Below, piece after piece: positions 1,251-52,424 of a stretch of 64,000 nt of DNA (position 1 is the first letter of the stretch; each line of letters starts with the position of its first letter). The DNA is from a virus: the IMG/VR virus record IMGVR_UViG_3300042484_000833, positions 1 to 64,000 of that record, one strand, 5' to 3'. The translations under genes were made by a program, and so were the position numbers. Below the pieces are notes generated by a model that worked only from the letters and a program-made list of their open reading frames with translations, was not told where the DNA came from and ran no database searches.

Positions 1251-1628
1251 TTAAACGCCGTACTTATTTCGTTTAGGTTTAGCAACTGTACTGATTTTGT
1301 TAACGCTATCTAATTCTAAACTGCGCATGTCTCCGTGATTTACATCATCGTAATCTGCGCCCACTGCTTTGGCGGCTTTTTTGAACATTTCGTTTTCAAT
1401 TTCTGTATATGGGTGTACAGTTTTCCTTTTGCCATGCCAGCTTTTGGCATCAATGTCGGGTACAGTTTTGCCATCAGTAGCAGCCATGGCTTGGCCTAGT
1501 TTAAACGACACATAATCACTATTCATTTTTTCAGCATCGCCGTAAGTGCTTATACCACGACTAGATTGACTGTGTCGCTTGGTAATTTTAGCCTGTTTAG
1601 CTTCTGAAATAATTTCTGTAACTTTCAT
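1251..1628 (-). CDS. Small tagged protein, unknown function (candidate internal head protein)
   Basis: The 125-aa basic protein starts MKVTEIISEA, nearly identical to the N-terminus of the next gene upstream. I chose ATG 1628 rather than the ATG at 1640 because it forms an ATGA overlap with the upstream stop and yields the shared tag. The body (RHSQSSRGISTYGDAEKMN, FKLGQAMAATDGKTVPDID, YTEIENEMFKKAAKAVGADY) has no motif I can assign; it ends with a basic KPKRNKYGV tail. The tag resembles the capsid-targeting sequences of T4 internal proteins (MKTYQEFIAE), which the gp21 protease cleaves after (I/L)-x-E; here I-S-E would be the site. Packaging in the head is therefore a reasonable inference, not shown. 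Confidence 0.65.
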   Translation of the reverse strand: MKVTEIISEAKQAKITKRHSQSSRGISTYGDAEKMNSDYVSFKLGQAMAATDGKTVPDIDAKSWHGKRKTVHPYTEIENEMFKKAAKAVGADYDDVNHGDMRSLELDSVNKISTVAKPKRNKYGV

Positions 1629-1918
1629 TCGCAATTCCATTTACGCAAAGCAAGTGCCTTGCGAGTTGGTTCACCATTGGGCTTTTTCATTGGGCCGTCA
1701 ACTCCGCCCATTCTAGCACAGAATGATTTACGGCGTTTAGCATCCTTACTGCCTGCTTTTAATTTACTAGGTTTAGTAGTTACTGCTGTTTGTAATTTGC
1801 TACCAGGATTTTCACGACGGTAGCTGGCAACGCCTTTGGCATTTAGGCCACCAGCTTTACTTTTACCTTCTTTTCTACGCCATGCGGCAGATTCTGAAAT
1901 AATTTCACTAACTTTCAT
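1625..1918 (-). CDS. Small basic tagged protein (GLNAKG...KSFCARM...RKALALRKWNC family)
   Basis: The 97-aa, very basic protein starts MKVSEIISES, the same tag as its downstream neighbour. It carries three blocks I recognise as a widespread small family: KEGKSKAGGLNAKGVASYRR, KRRKSFCARMGGVDGPMKK, and TRKALALRKWNC. I believe this matches a Pfam DUF (DUF5872 or DUF6321); the exact accession needs a search. The two conserved cysteines (in FCARM and WNC) suggest a metal site or disulphide. Its high Lys/Arg content would suit binding to packaged DNA. It starts 2 bases after the gp13-like stop codon and overlaps the next gene by 4 bases, so the three are translated as one unit. Function unknown. Confidence 0.72.
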   Translation of the reverse strand: MKVSEIISESAAWRRKEGKSKAGGLNAKGVASYRRENPGSKLQTAVTTKPSKLKAGSKDAKRRKSFCARMGGVDGPMKKPNGEPTRKALALRKWNCE

Positions 1919-36494: not shown

Positions 36495-37679
36495 TTAACT
36501 GAACTTGACAGCGGCAGCAGTGATAGCAACCTTGCCTAAGTAGTCAGCAGCGTTACCAAGAGATGACGCTGTGTTTGTTAACTCAACATAACCATAACGT
36601 GTCATGAATGAAACGACTGGTTCGAATGTTGATGGATCTAATACAACACCACTGCTCATCAACGGAACATATGGGCAATAAAATGCTGCCGCATCTGCTT
36701 CGCTAGAACCTTTGTAGCCGATTAGAACGTTGTCAAATCCGCCGCTTTCTAAAGCGTATGTGTTAACATAAATCTTCATAGCGTTGTTCAATGTACCAAC
36801 AAACTTGGTGTTTGTAGGTGCTTCGAATGTGCCTTCTGTAGTACGAGCAAACGCACTAGTTGTAGCACTTTGAAGAATTGTCAATGCCATTGGACTGATA
36901 ACAGCCCAGTTACCTGCGCCACGACGTGTACGTTGAGCAATCAAGTTAGCAACACGGTTGATTTGAACTGCCAATGCGGCATGTTCGTCACCAACGAATG
37001 TAGCAACACCAGATACTGAGCTCTGATCGTATGTCTGTGTAGCTGCACCAGCTAAAGTGCTTAAAGAAGCAAGAACTTCTTGGTCGATTTCAGCTGTGAT
37101 CTCTTGAGCAAGAGCAGCCATGATTTCTGCTTCGATGTCAATACCTTGTTGGGCTTGTGCATCTTGAGCAGCTTCAAATGTCCAGCGAGCTGATAGCTTA
37201 CGTGTCTTAGCTTCAACTGTTTGTTTCAAGATTTGAATGCTCATTCTGTTACCAGCAGCACCTTCTAAGTTGGCTGTAGTAGCTGCCTTAGGAGTTCCTG
37301 AAACTTGGTTACCAGAATAAGATTCAGCAATCTTGAATGGGCTGAATGCTTCTTCACCAGCAACAACTCCAGCACCTGTAGATGAATCGCTATAGCGAAC
37401 ACGTAAAGTGTGGATTTGTCCAACTGGACCGGTCATTGGCTGAACGCCAACCAACTCGTTAGCAATAACGGTTGGCATAACACGACGGATCACTGGAAGG
37501 ATCACGCGGTTAAGTGTAGCAACGTTACCTGCTGAAGTTGCGCCTGCTGACGCACTTTCTGCTAGATACTTGCGAGTGTTTTCTAATGTTACAGCCATCG
37601 ATGTTTTACGATTGCCTTGTAGGCCTTCTAATAGGGCTTCCTTGGTTTCGTTCCAACGGCTTGATAGTAGTTCTGACAT
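36495..37679 (-). CDS. 23: Major capsid protein, gp23
   Basis: The 394-aa protein matches the T4 gp23 HK97-fold capsid subunit: NRVILPVIRRVMPTVIANEL, VGVQPMTGPVGQIHTLRVRY, a KARTRKLSARWTFEA-like segment (VEAKTRKLSARWTFEAAQDA), QEITAEIDQEVLASLSTLAG and IAQRTRRGAGNWAVISPMAL are all diagnostic. The N-terminal ~41 residues are a likely propeptide: RKYLAE^SASAG fits the gp21 cleavage rule (L/I)-x-E. It is shorter than T4 gp23 (521 aa) and lacks its insertion domain, as in other marine relatives. Strong ribosome binding site AAGGAGA. It is last in the gp20-gp23 head operon and ends at a strong terminator, consistent with very high expression. Confidence 0.96.
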   Translation of the reverse strand: MSELLSSRWNETKEALLEGLQGNRKTSMAVTLENTRKYLAESASAGATSAGNVATLNRVILPVIRRVMPTVIANELVGVQPMTGPVGQIHTLRVRYSDSSTGAGVVAGEEAFSPFKIAESYSGNQVSGTPKAATTANLEGAAGNRMSIQILKQTVEAKTRKLSARWTFEAAQDAQAQQGIDIEAEIMAALAQEITAEIDQEVLASLSTLAGAATQTYDQSSVSGVATFVGDEHAALAVQINRVANLIAQRTRRGAGNWAVISPMALTILQSATTSAFARTTEGTFEAPTNTKFVGTLNNAMKIYVNTYALESGGFDNVLIGYKGSSEADAAAFYCPYVPLMSSGVVLDPSTFEPVVSFMTRYGYVELTNTASSLGNAADYLGKVAITAAAVKFS

Positions 37680-37690
37680 TTATTGTCTCC

Positions 37691-38785
37691 TTAAATTTTT
37701 AATCCAGCGAGTCGACGAATATCAACAATATTGTTGTCATTCTCGCTGCTACTTGCGCTGTTAGGAATTTTATTTCCTGTTACTTCCTTTGCCTCTACTA
37801 GTGCCTTACGTTTTTGTGGAGCTTCTCCAGCGATTACAGCCGGAAGGTACTTGTCAAAACTATTTTGTAATTTTGATGTCTGTACACTTTCAAGAAGCTC
37901 TGTCATAATAGCTTTTTGTCCGTTGGACAAAGGTGCTACTAATTCCGTCATAACTTCTTGACGTTCTTTGCTCTCCACTAGAGCCTTAATTTTGTGTTCT
38001 TTGCTTTCTGCGAGTTGTCTAGCTTGTGCTGCATCATTTTTAGCTGTTGCAACTTCCAACTCTTTTTGGTTTATAACCTTGAGCAATTTTGCTGTTTCAG
38101 ATTTCTCTGAAAGGTAGCTTGTTTGATATTCATTACTAAATGCTTCAAACAATTTGCGACCGAAGTCGTTTCTACGTGCTGTTTCAATATCTTCTTTTAG
38201 TTGACCAATCTCTTGGGTAAGAGTTTTTTCAACTGCAGATTCTACCAAACTAGCTGCACGCTTAACAAATTGTTCTTTGACCTTAGTGAATGCCTCTCGG
38301 CCGTCACGGATCAATCGCACTTTTGTTTCTGCAAGATCTTGTTTGTCTGTATGGAATTCTGCGATTTCCTGTGCTAGAGCTTCTACAACGAACTGTTCAA
38401 GTTTAATAAACTTGTCAGCCATTTGTTTTTGATCTTCATGTAAATCTTTAACTTCCGTAGCTAGCTGACGCACAACAAATTCTTTAATTTTTTCTGCGTC
38501 TTTCTTGGCTTTCACCACTACTTTTGCTTTTGCTTCGGCTAATTGATTACGATCTTCAACAAATTGAGCGATTTCTTCGCGTAGTTGGTCACCCAACATG
38601 CGATCAACAGCTTCTACCATGACAGACTTGTCATGCTCGTAGCGTTGTGCGAATTCTTCTCTTAGTTGTTGAGTAACTTGTGTACGATTTTCGTTGATAC
38701 GAGAATCCCAAGCTTTCTCAATTTCTGCTCTTACATCTTCAGAAACCACATTGTTTTCGAATAGACTTTTTAGTGCTTCCAACAT
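37691..38785 (-). CDS. 22: Prohead scaffold core protein, gp22-like
   Basis: A 364-aa, highly charged, almost wholly alpha-helical protein (LREEFAQRYEHDKSVMVEAV, KAKVVVKAKKDAEKIKEFVV) with long coiled-coil potential from ~40 to ~300. It lies between gp21 and gp23, exactly where T4 gp22 is encoded, and has the composition of a scaffold. The scaffold forms the prohead core and is degraded by gp21 before packaging; several (L/I/V)-x-E sites, such as ALVES/ALVEA and LAESK, are present. The C-terminus NIVDIRRLAGLKI resembles other gp22-like ends. Slightly longer than T4 gp22 (269 aa). Confidence 0.85.
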   Translation of the reverse strand: MLEALKSLFENNVVSEDVRAEIEKAWDSRINENRTQVTQQLREEFAQRYEHDKSVMVEAVDRMLGDQLREEIAQFVEDRNQLAEAKAKVVVKAKKDAEKIKEFVVRQLATEVKDLHEDQKQMADKFIKLEQFVVEALAQEIAEFHTDKQDLAETKVRLIRDGREAFTKVKEQFVKRAASLVESAVEKTLTQEIGQLKEDIETARRNDFGRKLFEAFSNEYQTSYLSEKSETAKLLKVINQKELEVATAKNDAAQARQLAESKEHKIKALVESKERQEVMTELVAPLSNGQKAIMTELLESVQTSKLQNSFDKYLPAVIAGEAPQKRKALVEAKEVTGNKIPNSASSSENDNNIVDIRRLAGLKI

Positions 38786-38798
38786 GTGTTTCTCCTCT

Positions 38799-39425
38799 TT
38801 ATTGGAGTCCGCTTATTAATCTTAATAAGCTCTCTTTGAGATATTTCTGCGCCTTAGGGTCGCCCTGCACTTCCTTCGCTATACGAAGGCTACTATAACC
38901 TCCCTTATTATTCATAAGGTGTTCATAGATTGGTGTTGGGTACGCTCCCGGAGCACTTGGTTGAGCTACCACATCTACTGTGATAATCTCAAAATCTGAC
39001 ACTTCACCGGATCCGTCTTCTTTGACGTTACCGGATCCGCGACTGCTTACTCCTAACTTAACTCCGCTTTCCAACATAGTTTTCACTAAGTTGCCCATTG
39101 GAGTCGGTAGGATTTTTAATTTTCCATAACCGTTTGGGCCATCCATCCACATATTTGTAATCATGTGGCTCACACGGTCAAGGTTAATTTTTAGGTCATC
39201 TGGATGATCCACTTCGCCGAGTACTGAGTATCCACCTTCAAGTTGATCGTTCAGGGTCTTGACAGCCCTGTCGATTTCATTAACAGGATAAACACGCTGA
39301 TTTTGATTCCTAACGCCGCCTTGGATACAAATACCTTTCATATAAAGGTTCTTGCCTCCTTCGCCGTCGGATTCAACGACCATTTTTGCTTGGTCGAAAC
39401 TCAGGTTTTCACGAAGATAATTCAT
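38799..39425 (-). CDS. 21: Prohead core protease, gp21
   Basis: The 208-aa serine protease (herpes-assemblin-like fold, S78/T4 gp21 family) matures the prohead by cutting the scaffold, gp23 and internal proteins. The likely catalytic residues are visible: His74 in GEVDHP and Ser127 or Ser128 in GVSSRG, with the FEIITVDVVAQPSAPGAY block after them. Length matches T4 gp21 (212 aa). It sits in T4 order between the core proteins and gp22. The specificity of this family, cleavage after (L/I)-x-E, is used here to interpret the N-terminal tags on three other proteins of the window. Confidence 0.94.
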   Translation of the reverse strand: MNYLRENLSFDQAKMVVESDGEGGKNLYMKGICIQGGVRNQNQRVYPVNEIDRAVKTLNDQLEGGYSVLGEVDHPDDLKINLDRVSHMITNMWMDGPNGYGKLKILPTPMGNLVKTMLESGVKLGVSSRGSGNVKEDGSGEVSDFEIITVDVVAQPSAPGAYPTPIYEHLMNNKGGYSSLRIAKEVQGDPKAQKYLKESLLRLISGLQ

Positions 39426-40674: not shown

Positions 40675-42405
40675 TTATGCTGCCGGTGCTGTAGGAACCG
40701 GCCCAGGTGCTGCTGGTGCTGTTCCCGGTGGTGCGCCAGGCATTTCCATTCCTGGTGGCGCTTCGGTGTCGGCGGCAGCGCCAGCATCAGATTCTATACC
40801 TGCTTGACTAACTCCAACGCCGCGTAATTCTCCACTACTGTCAGTGGGTGTTGGCTTGCCTTTGCCGTTTTCTTCAGCCCACAAGCGTTCGTTTTCTGCA
40901 ACTTCTTCTTCGCTTAGTCCTAGATAACGTTTCAAAGCAAAACGTTTTGAGATATAAGTCTGTTGACTAATAGTACCGTATGTGTTGATACGCTGATTAT
41001 CTAACTCTGCTTGACGATAAGTGGCAAAGTTTTGCGGCGGTTGGAACTTTAATTCAAACAGAGCACTGTCAATATTGATGCCTCTTTCATACAAATACAG
41101 TTTAAATTCTTGATCAAATACATCTTGCATCAAGCTCTGTAGTCGCATACAGTAGTTGTTAAATCGCAATTCTTGAATATATGCTGTGCCAACTCTTCCG
41201 TCGTTATACTGTGATTGGCTGTCTTCTGCACCAGTTGGCAGATAGCTACTTGGGATTCTTAAACCGCGAAATAATTTGTTTGTAAAGTATCTTAAGTCGT
41301 CAATTTCACCTAGGTTTGTACCGCCTGGCAGTGTTTCAACTTTACTTCCGCGACCTTCTGCTGTGGTTGGAAAGAAGTAATCTTCGTTAATGCTTAATGG
41401 ATTGTAAGCACTATCGATAACGTTGGTACCACCGCCAGTTGCGCTGGGGATACGTCTTTGATGAATTTCATTTTTAACACGTTCCACAAAGCCCATGGCC
41501 AAGTGGCTGGGCATGTTACCCACATCAATGTAAAAAATACGTCTTTCAGGAGCACGTTGTATGCGATAGATTAAAATAGCATCTTCTAGTAATTCTTTTT
41601 GTTTGAATACTTTAAAAACATTTTCTAATAAACTGTTTCCAAACGGAAAGTTATTGTCTAGACCTTCGCTTAAACTTAAATGTATCACATGCTTGGCATC
41701 TACTGCTAGTTCGTTTTGTTGTGTATCAAAGCGTGTGCCCACAGTGCCACCTTGCGGATATGAACCAGTCATGCCTCTTGCGGGGCCGCTGCCGTTGGGC
41801 CCAGCGTAATTAGTTCCGCGATTGTTGGTGTTAAGATTGTTGGGCTGAATAGTGGTTGTGACCAAGTCCATAAAATTAGGATTTAAATCACGAATAATGT
41901 ATTGTTCAGGTTCTTTGCCTTCACTTTCGTTCACAATAATTTTAACTATTTTACTAGAATCTATGTAAACCCATTTTTTATTTTCAGGATCTCTTACAAA
42001 GAATGCATCGCCGTATTTGAATACGTTGCGTACAATTCTAAAAATTCTAGTTTCGAACTTTTGTAATTTTGTCCATTGCTGTAGATATTCTCTCAAGATG
42101 GCAATTTCACTATTAGTAGCTTTGCTCTTGAAAAATAAATGGAATGGTGTTTGATTTTCTCTATTCTTTTGACTACAAAATTCAGCAATGATGTCCAAGG
42201 CCGCATTGACTTCACTGTCCATGTCCATGGTATCATATTGCAAATAGCGTTCAATACGATTAGGGGCGCCGGAATAAACATCCGGTAAAAAGCTAGAATA
42301 GTTTTTTCTAGCTGGGCCTACACCGTTGCCGCTATTAGTTAACGGACTGCTGTTTGAGCCCGATGATCTTACATTAACAGGGGTGAAATATTTTTTCCAG
42401 CTCAT
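40675..42405 (-). CDS. 20: Portal vertex protein, gp20
   Basis: The 576-aa protein matches gp20, the dodecameric portal through which DNA is packaged: PNRIERYLQYDTMDMDSEVN, AALDIIAEFCSQ, FRIVRNVFKYGDAFFVRDPE, LLEDAILIYRIQRAPERRIF, YIDVGNMP, GRGSKVETLPGGTNLGEIDD, LRYFTNKLFRGLRIPSSYLP are all conserved. Length is slightly greater than T4 gp20 (524 aa), with an extra Ala/Pro/Gly-rich tail of ~40 residues (APPGTAPAAPGPVPTAPAA). First head gene of the minus-strand block, directly downstream of the tape-measure-like gene with a 2-base gap. Confidence 0.95.
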   Translation of the reverse strand: MSWKKYFTPVNVRSSGSNSSPLTNSGNGVGPARKNYSSFLPDVYSGAPNRIERYLQYDTMDMDSEVNAALDIIAEFCSQKNRENQTPFHLFFKSKATNSEIAILREYLQQWTKLQKFETRIFRIVRNVFKYGDAFFVRDPENKKWVYIDSSKIVKIIVNESEGKEPEQYIIRDLNPNFMDLVTTTIQPNNLNTNNRGTNYAGPNGSGPARGMTGSYPQGGTVGTRFDTQQNELAVDAKHVIHLSLSEGLDNNFPFGNSLLENVFKVFKQKELLEDAILIYRIQRAPERRIFYIDVGNMPSHLAMGFVERVKNEIHQRRIPSATGGGTNVIDSAYNPLSINEDYFFPTTAEGRGSKVETLPGGTNLGEIDDLRYFTNKLFRGLRIPSSYLPTGAEDSQSQYNDGRVGTAYIQELRFNNYCMRLQSLMQDVFDQEFKLYLYERGINIDSALFELKFQPPQNFATYRQAELDNQRINTYGTISQQTYISKRFALKRYLGLSEEEVAENERLWAEENGKGKPTPTDSSGELRGVGVSQAGIESDAGAAADTEAPPGMEMPGAPPGTAPAAPGPVPTAPAA

Positions 42406-46366: not shown

Positions 46367-47681
46367 TTTCGTCGTAACCATAGACGCCGTATTTTTTCTT
46401 AGGGTCGTCCTGTATTTTTAAAGTAGGATCAGGAATGCCGGCAACACCAACCCTAGCTTTTATGTCATTAAGTTTGTCGTTGCCTACTAGACGATATCCA
46501 TTTTCATCACTAATTTGTTGATTATTAATGTAAAGTTTCTTGCCAACCCATTGAATATTCATACCATTTGTAGCTTGTCTTGCGCCATCGGCAGCATCAC
46601 CAGTTGGTGGTTTTACTGCGGTCTTACCAGGTAGTGGACCATCTAGTAGTCCAGCTTCCTGTAATCCTTTTTCTAGTAAATCAATAGCGGCTGCTGTCAA
46701 TGCCCCTGTTGGTTCAGTAATTGCTCTTACCAAAGAACTATTTAAAAATTCTTTACCAGCACTGGTACGCATGAATATCAAGAAAGCTGGGGCCGCAGGC
46801 CCCATTTCAATTAATTTAGAAATACCTTTTGCCACGTTAGTAGGCAAGCTAACAAACATACCTAAATATTTTGTTGTTGTAATGCTGGCGCCGCCCAGTG
46901 TAGCTGCACCTGTGGCAATACCTTTAAACATGCCTGACATTGCGCCAAAGAATTTGCTGGCCACTCCAGTATTTAAGGCAACACCAATGGCCAATTCTCC
47001 TAACAGTTTCTTTCTTAACTGTTGATACTTGTTATAGGCTTCTTGCTCTGACATTTTTCCAAAAGGAGAATCTTTGCCAGCTTTATAATCTTGGTAGTCT
47101 TCCTCTAACACGGACAAATCCACGTAGTATTCTCTTACAAATTCTAAACCCACAACAGTTTTTATCACAGTCATGGCTACATCGGGTATAAATCCCATCC
47201 TTGCCTGGGCTGCTGCCTTCATGGAAGCATTGGCACCACGCATTTTTAAGTAGGCTTTAATTTTTTCAAACCCTACTTTACTGTCAGGGTCAAATTTTCT
47301 CAAGTTTATTTTTTCTGTTTTAGCTACTGTTTTTTCTAATTGGGCAAGACGCTCAGTAACTTTCTTTTTTAACCACTTGCCGCCTTTACTTTGCCATGAC
47401 TTAGGAATAAGTTTAAGTATTCCTGCTTTACCCAGCTTGGCAAAGCCAGGTGTAAACAATAGTACAGCATCTATGAATAGATCATTCCATTCGTCGTCAG
47501 TAATTGATTCAGGATCTTGGTTGTATTTGCCAATGAATTTGTATATTTCGTAGGCACTCCAAGCACTCATGCCTACAGAGATTGCGGTAATTATTGTACC
47601 TATTCCAATACCTGCTATTACAAGAGGTACGGCTTCATTCAATGATTCAGTTCTTTCAGAGACTATTTGATGGACTTTCAT
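46359..47681 (-). CDS. Tagged, membrane-prone protein (candidate packaged/injected protein)
   Basis: The 440-aa protein begins MKVHQIVSERTESL, a variant of the MKVxEIISE tag. Residues ~18-45 (VPLVIAGIGIGTIITAISVG) and several later stretches (ALNTGVASKFFGAMSGMFKG, TYLGMFVSLP-type) are hydrophobic or amphipathic, separated by basic helices (KKKVTERLAQLEKTVAKTEK). The C-terminal ~70 residues include MNIQWVGKKLYINNQQISDE. I know of no enzymatic function. Size, tag and membrane propensity fit a protein packaged in the head and delivered with the DNA, but this is inference. A late-promoter-like box abuts the start codon with no visible ribosome binding site; a strong hairpin lies just upstream. 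Confidence 0.6.
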   Translation of the reverse strand: MKVHQIVSERTESLNEAVPLVIAGIGIGTIITAISVGMSAWSAYEIYKFIGKYNQDPESITDDEWNDLFIDAVLLFTPGFAKLGKAGILKLIPKSWQSKGGKWLKKKVTERLAQLEKTVAKTEKINLRKFDPDSKVGFEKIKAYLKMRGANASMKAAAQARMGFIPDVAMTVIKTVVGLEFVREYYVDLSVLEEDYQDYKAGKDSPFGKMSEQEAYNKYQQLRKKLLGELAIGVALNTGVASKFFGAMSGMFKGIATGAATLGGASITTTKYLGMFVSLPTNVAKGISKLIEMGPAAPAFLIFMRTSAGKEFLNSSLVRAITEPTGALTAAAIDLLEKGLQEAGLLDGPLPGKTAVKPPTGDAADGARQATNGMNIQWVGKKLYINNQQISDENGYRLVGNDKLNDIKARVGVAGIPDPTLKIQDDPKKKYGVYGYDEIK

Positions 47682-48128: not shown

Positions 48129-48566
48129 TTAACCGTTTAGTTGTTTGCCTTTGATGTGTGAGCCGTGTACACGAACAGCGATTTGTCCGTTGTAGTAGTC
48201 ATCTGATTCTAATACCCGCCTGGAGAATTGTTCTCTTGCCTCGATATAACTACATTCAGCCTTTGATGTGCAGTAATAAATTATTTCTCTATGGAAATTT
48301 TCTCTGCCTTGTTGTTCTACGTCTTTGTTTAGTTGGTCGTTTGAGCCATAGTATTCACGCCAGTCAGAATCAATTTTGGATTTAATCCGCTTTTTCTTCT
48401 TGGTGCCGTTCTTGAGTTTTACTGTTTTATAAGTTGTTTTAGAAAATTTTGATAATTTCTTGCCTATATATTTTCGACCAGTGATGTTATTAGTGATACA
48501 ATAGACAAATCCAATACATACTTCAGGTAAGGTTTCGACTATTGTGTTTTGATAATACCATGACAT
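48129..48566 (-). CDS. GIY-YIG family endonuclease
   Basis: The 145-aa protein has the GIY-YIG signature near its N-terminus: IGFVYCITN (GIY at ~19-23) and GRKYIGKK (YIG at ~33-35), followed by a basic segment (KLKNGTKKKKRIKSKIDSDW) and a later EAREQFS where the catalytic Glu is expected. T4 has several such Seg nucleases; related free-standing versions are common in marine T4-like phages. I start at ATG 48566 rather than the preceding TTG. It lies 7 bases after the 80-aa gene in the gp55-gp47-gp46 transcript and just before the structured region. Whether it is a homing enzyme or a phage-specific nuclease cannot be told. Confidence 0.8.
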   Translation of the reverse strand: MSWYYQNTIVETLPEVCIGFVYCITNNITGRKYIGKKLSKFSKTTYKTVKLKNGTKKKKRIKSKIDSDWREYYGSNDQLNKDVEQQGRENFHREIIYYCTSKAECSYIEAREQFSRRVLESDDYYNGQIAVRVHGSHIKGKQLNG

Positions 48567-48573
48567 CAACTAG

Positions 48574-50597: not shown

Positions 50598-51616
50598 AGG
50601 CTATTATAGATACTCAATAATACTTTACTATCGAAAGTGTCACTTTCGATATTGACCAACTGATTGCTCACAATTTGATCCACACTTTCAAATGCTTGTA
50701 TATTGATATCAGTATTGATTTCAACTTCTTTCTTTTCAGATATCAGTGTTAGTTCTCTAATATCATAATCACTAATAAATTTTTCCTTGATAAAGCTAGC
50801 TTCTTCGTAGCTGATGTCAATGTCGAGACTTACTCGCAGATGCATCTTGCTGGTAATCAGCGTATCTGCTTCGTCAATCAACTGACTTAATTTAATAGTT
50901 CTAAATTTAGGACACTCTGTCCAGTTAATATACTGGGGCACACCATCCCACTCTAAAATCATCATGCCGCGTTCGTCGTCCCACGTATCAGCATAGTTGT
51001 GCGGAAACGCATTACCAATGTAATGCATATTTTGACGTTGTTGTCGTTTATGAAAGTGTCCGCTAAACCCAAGTTCGTAGTTTTTAAAACTATCCAACTG
51101 AATTTCACCATGATCCGGCATCTGAACCATGGCATTCATGAAGAAACTGGGCAATTCAAAGTGACCAAAGATATATTTGCCACCTTTCTTGCCTATGGTT
51201 TTCCATTCGTCTCCGACAAGCCACGGACATAAGGTGACGTCGCCAATAGTAGTAGGTTCGTGTACCACAGTAATTCCAGGAATATACTTTCCGAATTCGA
51301 CGCTGTGAATATCCCGCTTGTCTTTGTAATAAAGATCATGATTACCAGGAAAGAAATAAAACTTATCAAAAGCCTGTCCCAGTTTCTCAAGGGCTCTAAG
51401 GCTGTAGTCCATAGTTGTAATATTAAGACTATTGCGGTTGTGATGCCAATCGCCCATAAAAATACCTGTATCACATCCGTTCTCCTTGGCCTTTGCAATA
51501 TACCAATCAACAAAATCTTCACAGTCTTGATTGTGTGTTTGACTGTTTGATTTTAATCCAAAATGTATGTCTGTAAAGCAAGCAACTTTTTTAAATAAAT
51601 TACTCACCTGATTCAC
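50594..51616 (-). CDS. 47: Recombination endonuclease subunit, gp47 (Mre11/SbcD-like)
   Basis: The 340-aa calcineurin-like metallophosphoesterase provides the nuclease of the gp46/gp47 complex. Metal-binding motifs are in order: DIH at 16-18, GDWHHN at 55-60, GNHD at 91-94, GHFELP, and GFSGHFHKR. T4 gp47 is 339 aa, almost the same. The N-terminus overlaps the 3' end of gp55 by 17 bases; the 3' end overlaps gp46 by 4. Confidence 0.95.
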   Translation of the reverse strand: MNQVSNLFKKVACFTDIHFGLKSNSQTHNQDCEDFVDWYIAKAKENGCDTGIFMGDWHHNRNSLNITTMDYSLRALEKLGQAFDKFYFFPGNHDLYYKDKRDIHSVEFGKYIPGITVVHEPTTIGDVTLCPWLVGDEWKTIGKKGGKYIFGHFELPSFFMNAMVQMPDHGEIQLDSFKNYELGFSGHFHKRQQRQNMHYIGNAFPHNYADTWDDERGMMILEWDGVPQYINWTECPKFRTIKLSQLIDEADTLITSKMHLRVSLDIDISYEEASFIKEKFISDYDIRELTLISEKKEVEINTDINIQAFESVDQIVSNQLVNIESDTFDSKVLLSIYNSL

Positions 51617-52424
51617 CTTCGAAACGTTTTATAGCATTTGCATGTTCACCAGCGCCAGTTCTGCTGTAGCTAGGATTCATGCCATTCATCTCCAATAGGT
51701 CGTCACGAATATTTTGATTACGTTTTTCTAAATTAATAATGCGAACAAAACTGTTAGTCACCGCTGCCGTAAAGTAGGCAAATGGGTTATCACTTTTGCT
51801 TTCATCAAATTGTAAACCAATTTGTGTTAGTTGTAAAATAGCCTGTCCTTTCATTTCGTCGTTGTAAGTATAACCTCGTACATTGCCTCTTGTGGCATAT
51901 CGTTCACATAATTTAATGTACATACGGGCAAGTGTATTTGTAATCTGCCCGTGATCTTTGTTAAATTTACCAGTTTCTAAATCACCCTTCCAGTGACTTT
52001 TTCCAACACATACTAAAATATCTTTATCGTCGAACTTCCAGTGTTGAAATGGAGGAAAATTAACTTTATCTCTATGATCCGCTATGGTCTTTGGATTTTT
52101 TTTACGGGTACCGTTTAACGGAATGTGCTCAAACGACATAATTCTAAACACAATGTCTGTTTTAGCAATCTTTTTATAGTCCACTTCGCAGTCTGCTTGT
52201 TTGACTTTTTCCCCGGCAGCTTTACGTCGAGCATACGCCTCTTGACTCATTCGTTTGGCCTGTGCCCGTTTAGCTTCAGCAACAGTTCGAATGTTAATTT
52301 TATCAACAGTGGGCAATATCAAATCATAACGATGATATTCTGGTTGGGTAAATGAGCAGAATGTATTTTTGCTTTTGTGTATTTCTTCTAATAAATCTTT
52401 GTTGTTTAAGTAATTAACTTTCAT
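51600..52424 (-). CDS. 55: Late-transcription sigma factor, gp55-like, with insertion
   Basis: The C-terminal ~110 residues match gp55, the phage sigma factor that recognises TATAAATA-type late promoters with gp33 and the sliding clamp: LARMYIKLCERYATRGNVRG, YTYNDEMKGQAILQL, FDESKSDNPFAYFTAAVTNS, FVRIINLEKRNQNIRDD. The first ~20 residues (NYLNNKDLLEEIHKSK) also match its N-terminus. Between them is a ~135-residue insertion (DIVFRIMSFEHIPLNGTRKK, KVNFPPFQHWKFDDKDILVC) absent from T4 gp55 (185 aa) but, as I recall, present in cyanophage versions. It is first gene of the gp55-gp47-gp46 block; no late box precedes it, consistent with middle-time expression. Confidence 0.85.
   Translation of the reverse strand: MKVNYLNNKDLLEEIHKSKNTFCSFTQPEYHRYDLILPTVDKINIRTVAEAKRAQAKRMSQEAYARRKAAGEKVKQADCEVDYKKIAKTDIVFRIMSFEHIPLNGTRKKNPKTIADHRDKVNFPPFQHWKFDDKDILVCVGKSHWKGDLETGKFNKDHGQITNTLARMYIKLCERYATRGNVRGYTYNDEMKGQAILQLTQIGLQFDESKSDNPFAYFTAAVTNSFVRIINLEKRNQNIRDDLLEMNGMNPSYSRTGAGEHANAIKRFEGESGE

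Follow-up and report, generated by a model that had tools for sequence, protein, structure and literature searches.

A leader resembling the T4 capsid-targeting signal recurs on unrelated proteins of a giant T4-like phage lineage and probably marks them for packaging into the prohead

We find that three otherwise unrelated proteins encoded in a single stretch of viral DNA (64,000 nucleotides, i.e. positions 1 to 64,000 of the 81,895-base IMG/VR record IMGVR_UViG_3300042484_000833; hereafter the window) begin with a similar nine-residue leader, and that this leader recurs on diverse proteins of related phages. The best explanation, to which we assign a probability of about 0.84, is that the leader is a divergent T4-type capsid-targeting system that packs cargo into the prohead, where the gp21 protease would remove it. 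A T4-type leader on the cargo of gp21-carrying phages had already been proposed by a sequence-only reading of the window, and it now finds good support in comparative evidence and in the virion mass spectrometry published for S-CREM2, a T4-like cyanophage, as far as the excerpts of that report extend.

All three genes are encoded on the minus strand. P0001 (1251–1628, 125 aa) starts MKVTEIISEA, i.e. a leader ending I-S-E^A (codons 1–9 at 1602–1628) followed by a basic module, and has a possible alternative start four codons upstream (MELR-MKVTEIISE). P0002 (1625–1918, 97 aa) starts MKVSEIISES, with a leader ending I-S-E^S (codons 1–9 at 1892–1918) and a very basic module, and its reading frame overlaps that of P0001 by 4 bases. 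P0003 (46359–47681, 440 aa) is located ~44 kb off and starts MKVHQIVSER; its leader, MKVHQIVSE^R, occupies codons 1–9 (47655–47681), and the RTESLNE that follows (codons 10–16 at 47634–47654) ends in a second candidate site, LNE16^A17. A leader regular expression applied to six frames of the window returns exactly these three starts and none besides, while a degenerate DNA version of the pattern finds the same starts alone in the whole record (0 matches when reversed), which confirms the earlier observation of three shared starts on otherwise unrelated proteins. The pI calculated after residue 9 is 9.5, 10.9, and 9.3 for P0001, P0002, and P0003, respectively, values that would suit proteins packed with DNA.

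P0002 belongs to DUF6321 (PF19846, phrog_4689; 83.3 bits against a Pfam cut-off of 28.5). Searches of PHROGs, Pfam, and NCBIfam returned nothing for P0001 and, for P0003, a single Pfam match far below cut-off; tblastn against named phages matched neither. A predicted structure of P0001 (34-row alignment) was set aside at a mean pLDDT of 52.7. The P0003 model (32 rows; mean pLDDT 66.7, i.e. moderate) consists largely of helices, with a small end that contains beta structure, and a Foldseek search with it against PDB and BFVD returned nothing at E <= 0.001.

The head genes are also found in the window, all on the minus strand: a gp23-type major capsid protein (36495–37679), a possible scaffold (37691–38785; phrog_10922, of unknown function) whose role is suggested by its place between gp21 and gp23, a gp21-type prohead protease that is the presumed processing enzyme (38799–39425; Peptidase_S77, PF03420; 92.2 bits, cut-off 27), and the portal protein gp20 (40675–42405; phrog_213). 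The gp23 protein has a likely cut at LAE41^S (YLAE^S, residues 38–42), and both features named from the sequence, a gp21 and a gp23 with a matching LAE^S site, are therefore present. The gp23 N-terminus LAE^[ST] is kept in the window, G002, G003, and G006, and cyanophage Syn19 differs there. P0003 is flanked by gp46 on one side and by baseplate-hub and portal genes on the other, and a gp55-like late sigma factor (51600–52424, minus strand; phrog_12791) is consistent with late expression of the tagged genes.

All 29 window proteins that were compared are 100% identical to those of a 383-kb contig, G001 (the portal over 547 of 576 residues), so the window very probably derives from a giant T4-like phage. 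Judging from the contig set, we take the habitat of this giant uncultured lineage to be freshwater. Between gp46 and P0003, the window also carries a 145-aa ORF (48129–48569, minus strand; MSWYYQ...FVYCITN) that appears GIY-YIG-like by eye, and similar ORFs occupy the same place in loci fetched through gp46. A single 3987-aa open frame (L004:278–12241; record 63778–75741) begins shortly before the window end and continues past it.

In T4, a stretch of just 10 N-terminal residues of IPIII is enough for packaging, with residues 4 and 7 of the leader mattering for targeting and residues 8 and 10 for processing (PMC9026906, in the excerpts available to us). On this precedent, the leader would bind the prohead core late in infection, the protein carrying it would be enclosed, and the gp21-type protease would cut C-terminal to the Glu in a hydrophobic-x-Glu motif. 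We infer that the mature cargo would remain beside the DNA inside the head and would most probably exit with it. Cargo of unrelated kinds would share the leader as an interchangeable tag, i.e. small basic modules (P0001 and P0002/DUF6321), the diverging and often hydrophobic P0003, and, in the same and related genomes, enzyme-like proteins, and fusion cargo that keeps the motif at its junctions could allow one leader to bring in several pieces. Against this explanation, the residues that follow the leader Glu are varied (R, K, D, Y, and L in some).

The same kind of start is found on many other proteins of related genomes, with six or seven regular-expression matches each in G001, G002, G003, and G041. 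Besides P0001–P0003, tagged ORFs of G001 include a 383-aa DUF6267 protein (54.2 bits, cut-off 27), a 236-aa protein with an HExxH motif by eye and a Pfam metallopeptidase match below cut-off, and ORFs of 83 and 117 aa, plus a doubtful one of 61 aa. Tagged ORFs on other proteins number six in G002 (400 kb) and seven in G003 (223 kb), one probable chance match in G002 (MKTIDSVIDE) being excluded. Their cargo includes a GP88 protein (96.4 bits, cut-off 24.4), a protein of 429 aa that matches phage kinases (phrog_15752, 1.3e-7), and one of 752 aa with DUF6934 just over cut-off and an acetyltransferase match below it, the others having no firm match. Resemblances noted by eye to ADP-ribosyltransferases (G3_678, G41_210913, and G52_124356) and to DUF4258 (G3_1955) had no Pfam support and were dropped, and further short matches to a looser regular expression in G001 and G004 are doubtful. 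The leader letters vary by genome, e.g. MKVxEI.., MKIxEI.., or MRAxEF...

Two further observations were made in these genomes. Two otherwise dissimilar tagged proteins, one in G001 (274312-) and one in G002 (287439-) (L105 and L126), share a basic end module of ~60 residues (NFADGxNPQDKGDSKRHGVPTKAS...) that follows LEE or VAE. Another type of leader (MKKLLQVVTEG or MKRFVSVIKEG) is seen in G001 (271380-), G004 (73661-), and G011 (21015+), apparently on one small family.

Chance was assessed with one regular expression, applied to Met within 30 aa of a mechanically chosen ORF start and to Met beyond residue 60. The pattern was shaped on leaders already seen and the counts in relatives are thus not blind, the guards being the internal Met and the control phages. 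In seven relatives (G002, G003, G041, G004, G006, G007, and G052), 33 of 1983 start Met carry the leader vs 4 of 6356 internal Met, and G001 gives 6/616 vs 3/1845. With the cargo diversity described above, these non-blind counts agree with the earlier expectation that gp21 phages share the tag on genes that differ downstream. The converse, a tag equally common in phages lacking gp21, was not observed: six controls with no PF03420 match (SPO1, which carries another head protease, T5, N4, 400 of the 497 kb of phage G, G024, and G022) give 3/1796 start vs 7/4964 internal Met. T5 supplies 2 of those 3 start matches, and two matches in T5 and one in phage G are probably due to chance. T4 (2/384 start Met), P-SSM2 (3/414), and Syn19 (1/255) are not significant singly, and both T4 matches are MKTYQEFIAE proteins.

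A gp21 gene is found in 9 of 20 records with P0001 or P0003, including G001, G002, G003, G006, and G007. It was not found in the tagged contigs G004, G041, and G052 (140 of 141 kb scanned), nor in most fragmentary records; the sequences of G041 (261 kb) and G004 (109 kb) stop close to gp46 or P0003, shortly before the position that portal and gp21 occupy in relatives, and their lack of gp21 is likely due to truncation. Among 45 DUF6321 records, gp21 is present in 1 of the 26 tagged or fused and 0 of the 19 untagged, gp23 likewise in 1 of 45 (the same record), and, of 44 records, only that one matches the portal and a custom gp21 profile. Since portal, gp21, and gp23 lie together and many DUF6321 records are short, this set provides no test of a link to gp21.

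The Glu that ends the leader is also kept where modules are fused. Across 34 chosen relatives of P0001, fusions included, E9 is present in 34 of 34 and is the sole invariant residue among the first 24, while the P3 residue is I in 25, L in 5, V in 2, and M in 2. The P0001 module forms the end of a longer protein in 10 of the 52 relatives read (80 loci kept of 93), although some of the ten are near-identical. All ten fusions have an HxGH-type nucleotidyltransferase motif by eye, and the three tested (L035, L036, and L043) all match cytidyltransferase phrog_3041. They begin with leader-like sequences (MRLRELFE, MKLREFFT.E, or MLLRELF), and their junctions read VAE^A, MAE^A, or LEE^S. One of them, L036:2176–5544, is a 1123-aa protein that combines the P0001 module with a cytidylyltransferase, an unknown domain (phrog_19290), and a start resembling a leader.

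DUF6321 is a stand-alone tagged gene here (P0002), and elsewhere it is untagged or a C-terminal module. Of its 88 distinct contexts, 66 have a Glu directly before the module, with L, I, or V at P3 in 62 of these 66; in 3 others the Glu is one or two residues off, and 19 have none. These 19 genes are small ORFs of 90–129 residues with no leader. In cyanophages, proteins that end in DUF6321 and resemble strings of small Cys/Lys-rich modules with xxE sites between them are found at L170:2684–4273, L172:1607–4249, and L173:19104–20267. DUF6321 is named in no paper that we found in the open-licence PMC literature.

P0003 relatives were fetched through the neighboring gp46, with the leader ignored (80 loci kept of 598), and 64 of these loci have at least 900 bases downstream. 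The slot ORF is absent in 11 of the 64; ten of these have <1,400 bases there, and L430 (2,674 bases) is a real miss. Leaving out L372, L378, L384 (unclear start), L408, L409, L414, L426, L441, and L442 as repeats or cut, the set comprises 46 proteins (44 loci plus G2_81624 and G4_784) and includes some near-identical pairs. Starts were picked by a leader-like pattern, which favors leaders, and on this basis 40 of 46 slot proteins have the strict leader; in the remaining six (MKITEI.., MKVYEI.. in two, MKVYEV.. in two, and MKVTEI..) the Glu is displaced or missing. The bodies form six single-linkage clusters, 37 of the 46 falling in one, and with 16–40% aligned identity to P0003 most slot proteins appear to be one divergent family. 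Between the six cluster representatives, 5.9 of 9 leader residues are alike vs 0.53 of 9 at residues 25–33.

The sequence-only reading had placed the cut at residue 9 in all three proteins. This is retained for the ISE9 sites of P0001 and P0002, but for P0003 the likelier cut is LNE16^A, with VSE9^R judged the poorer site, because many of its relatives keep a second [IL]xE there. Indeed, a second [IL]xE[AGSV] occurs 14 times in 920 residues at positions 10–29 of slot proteins vs 21 times in 14,878 residues elsewhere. At least one strongly hydrophobic 19-mer is present in 26 of 43 complete slot proteins, which prompts the guess that they help in membrane passage or act at the host membrane.

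An independent comparison is provided by S-CREM2, whose record annotates a prohead core protease and in whose virions 52 proteins are listed by mass spectrometry (PMC10665884, in the excerpts available to us). We scanned 216 of its 219 CDS (the other three fall beyond the stretch analyzed), which include all 52 detected, with the chance-test expression at residue 1, GTG/TTG starts being also allowed. Four CDS match and all four are reported in virions (P = 3.1e-3; with ATG only, 3/3 and P of about 0.013), i.e. a SAM hydrolase (MKDFDSFLEE), ORF13 (MKDLHSFLTE), a kinase (VKRFDAFLTE), and a cytidylyltransferase (MKNFSSFLTE). A T4-type core, chosen after the starts had been seen, is found in the first 30 residues of 8 CDS, 7 of which are detected (P = 2.2e-4); this adds Cas9 (LRFASFMAE^A), ORF136, and gp122 as detected and gp71 as a miss, the matches in gp122 and gp71 being probably due to chance. 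The core occurs 8 times in first-30 stretches (6480 residues) vs 4 times in the other 47,597 residues. Two virion endolysins, among the six proteins termed non-structural in the excerpts of PMC10665884, lack the core, as do most of the detected unknowns. In gp12 (L450:4705–7314, minus strand), the Cas9 reported from virions, the core lies ~17 residues after the annotated start.

The excerpts of PMC10665884 leave open whether the regulatory proteins of S-CREM2 were merely unseparated from virions, and it bears on this doubt that the kinase, cytidylyltransferase, and SAM hydrolase carry an apparent packaging leader. The leader also starts the cytidylyltransferases of S-RIM2, P-SSM2, Syn19 (identified by near-identity to the S-RIM2 start), P-TIM40, and Melnitz-1, and is absent from the start of the RaK2 enzyme. 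According to the excerpts available to us, the cytidylyltransferase of S-SCSM1 is a virion protein (PMC9602691) and the kinase of S-CRM01 is present in virions (PMC10665884). The S-CRM01 kinase starts MISFDQFLSE, and its homologues start MKSLKLFE (S-N03), MKSLKIFE (MA01), and MKRLGRLLAE (S-B68).

If tagged proteins are packaged, their function may still be structural. P0001, P0002, and P0003 could be basic DNA condensers in a very large head, together with a partly hydrophobic ejection protein, with no effectors among them, a proposal that in our judgment falls slightly short of an even chance. It draws on the pI of P0002, on the hydrophobic stretches in the P0003 slot, and on untagged DUF6321 genes among the head genes of phages with other capsids. 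For example, Pelagibacter phage Eistla (Autographiviridae, outside the 88 contexts) has a leaderless DUF6321 between scaffold and capsid genes and no gp21 match, and contig G024, one of the 19 untagged, has a portal and a major head protein of another type near the module and shows no match to gp21, to gp23, or to a portal of the T4 type. In cyanophage S-P4, DUF6321 ends a protein annotated as structural. The earlier idea that the cargo may be injected and act against host defences is hypothetical, and the small basic modules of P0001 and P0002, found too at the ends of larger proteins, could instead be internal head proteins. Against a structural role, the divergence of P0003 bodies would fit an arms race and some other tagged proteins are enzyme-like. 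The T4 internal proteins Ip1–3, for their part, specifically inhibit host GmrSD enzymes (PMC12373910, in the excerpts available to us), on which basis an action of tagged proteins against host defences is possible.

Alternatively, the leader could direct proteins to another phage assembly, i.e. the tail, a membrane, or a replication site, and stay uncut. The position of P0003 between a baseplate-hub gene and gp46, its often hydrophobic relatives, and the varied residues after the Glu would fit such a role, but the leader rule recovers the known head cargo of T4, the second site is commoner near the starts of P0003-slot proteins, and the S-CREM2 enzymes that carry the leader are reported from virions; we therefore regard it as unlikely. 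Least probable of all is that the shared start is a recombination remnant (a mobile start together with its promoter and ribosome site) with no role at the protein level: tags are indeed more alike within than between genomes (3.17 vs 2.21 of 7; 0 of 2000 shuffles; 33 hand-listed leaders in six genomes) and TAAATA lies just upstream of 12 of 39 tagged genes vs 263 of 1759 (P = 0.01, a weak late-promoter enrichment), but the Glu persists at junctions inside proteins, well away from gene starts, is invariant in P0001 although the preceding letters change, and the leader goes with reported virion presence in S-CREM2.

To our knowledge, which proteins are injected with phage DNA is a long-open question outside T4. 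We see an even chance that the leader and junction sites together constitute a loading code general to gp21 phages. Such a code would allow the injected proteins of uncultured giant and ocean phages to be listed, including NAD-making cytidylyltransferases, kinases, a SAM hydrolase, Cas9, and multi-module polyproteins cut in the head. A readable leader and junction rule would yield a testable cargo list from sequence for giant phages that, being uncultured, cannot be assayed, and a ready-made Cas9 borne in virions would, if true, be a phage-delivered nuclease active at entry.

The system is of a known kind, the T4 capsid-targeting sequence. As far as we searched, what is new is the Ile-rich leader of a giant uncultured phage lineage, the variety of cargo that bears it, a Glu conserved at fusion junctions, the additional site of P0003-family proteins, and the link to virion enzymes of cyanophages. 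In the open-licence PMC literature, of which some papers were available as excerpts, we found none proposing that last link. There, "capsid targeting" and cyanophage co-occur only in a review whose cyanophage mention is a reference title, and the excerpts of PMC10665884 draw no connection from the S-CREM2 virion enzymes to a leader.

Like its T4 counterpart, the window leader is a short MK sequence that ends in hydrophobic-x-Glu and is common to unrelated cargo in a gp21 phage. It differs in having nine residues, M-K-V-x-E/Q-I-I/V-S-E, vs MKTYQEFIAE, with Thr/Ser/His4 and Ile/Val7 and not Tyr4/Phe7, and is hence a variant; the cargo of its lineage is also larger and more varied, with internal sites in fusions and a second site in the P0003 family. 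The virion enzymes of S-CREM2 and S-CRM01 similarly present a T4-type leader on unrelated enzymes, although theirs is Phe-rich and T4-like and that of the window Ile-rich. In phiKZ and SPN3US, head cargo is likewise cut after Glu by a prohead protease (PMC9026906, in the excerpts available to us), but these phages stand apart, as another lineage with a diverged protease and multi-site propeptides.
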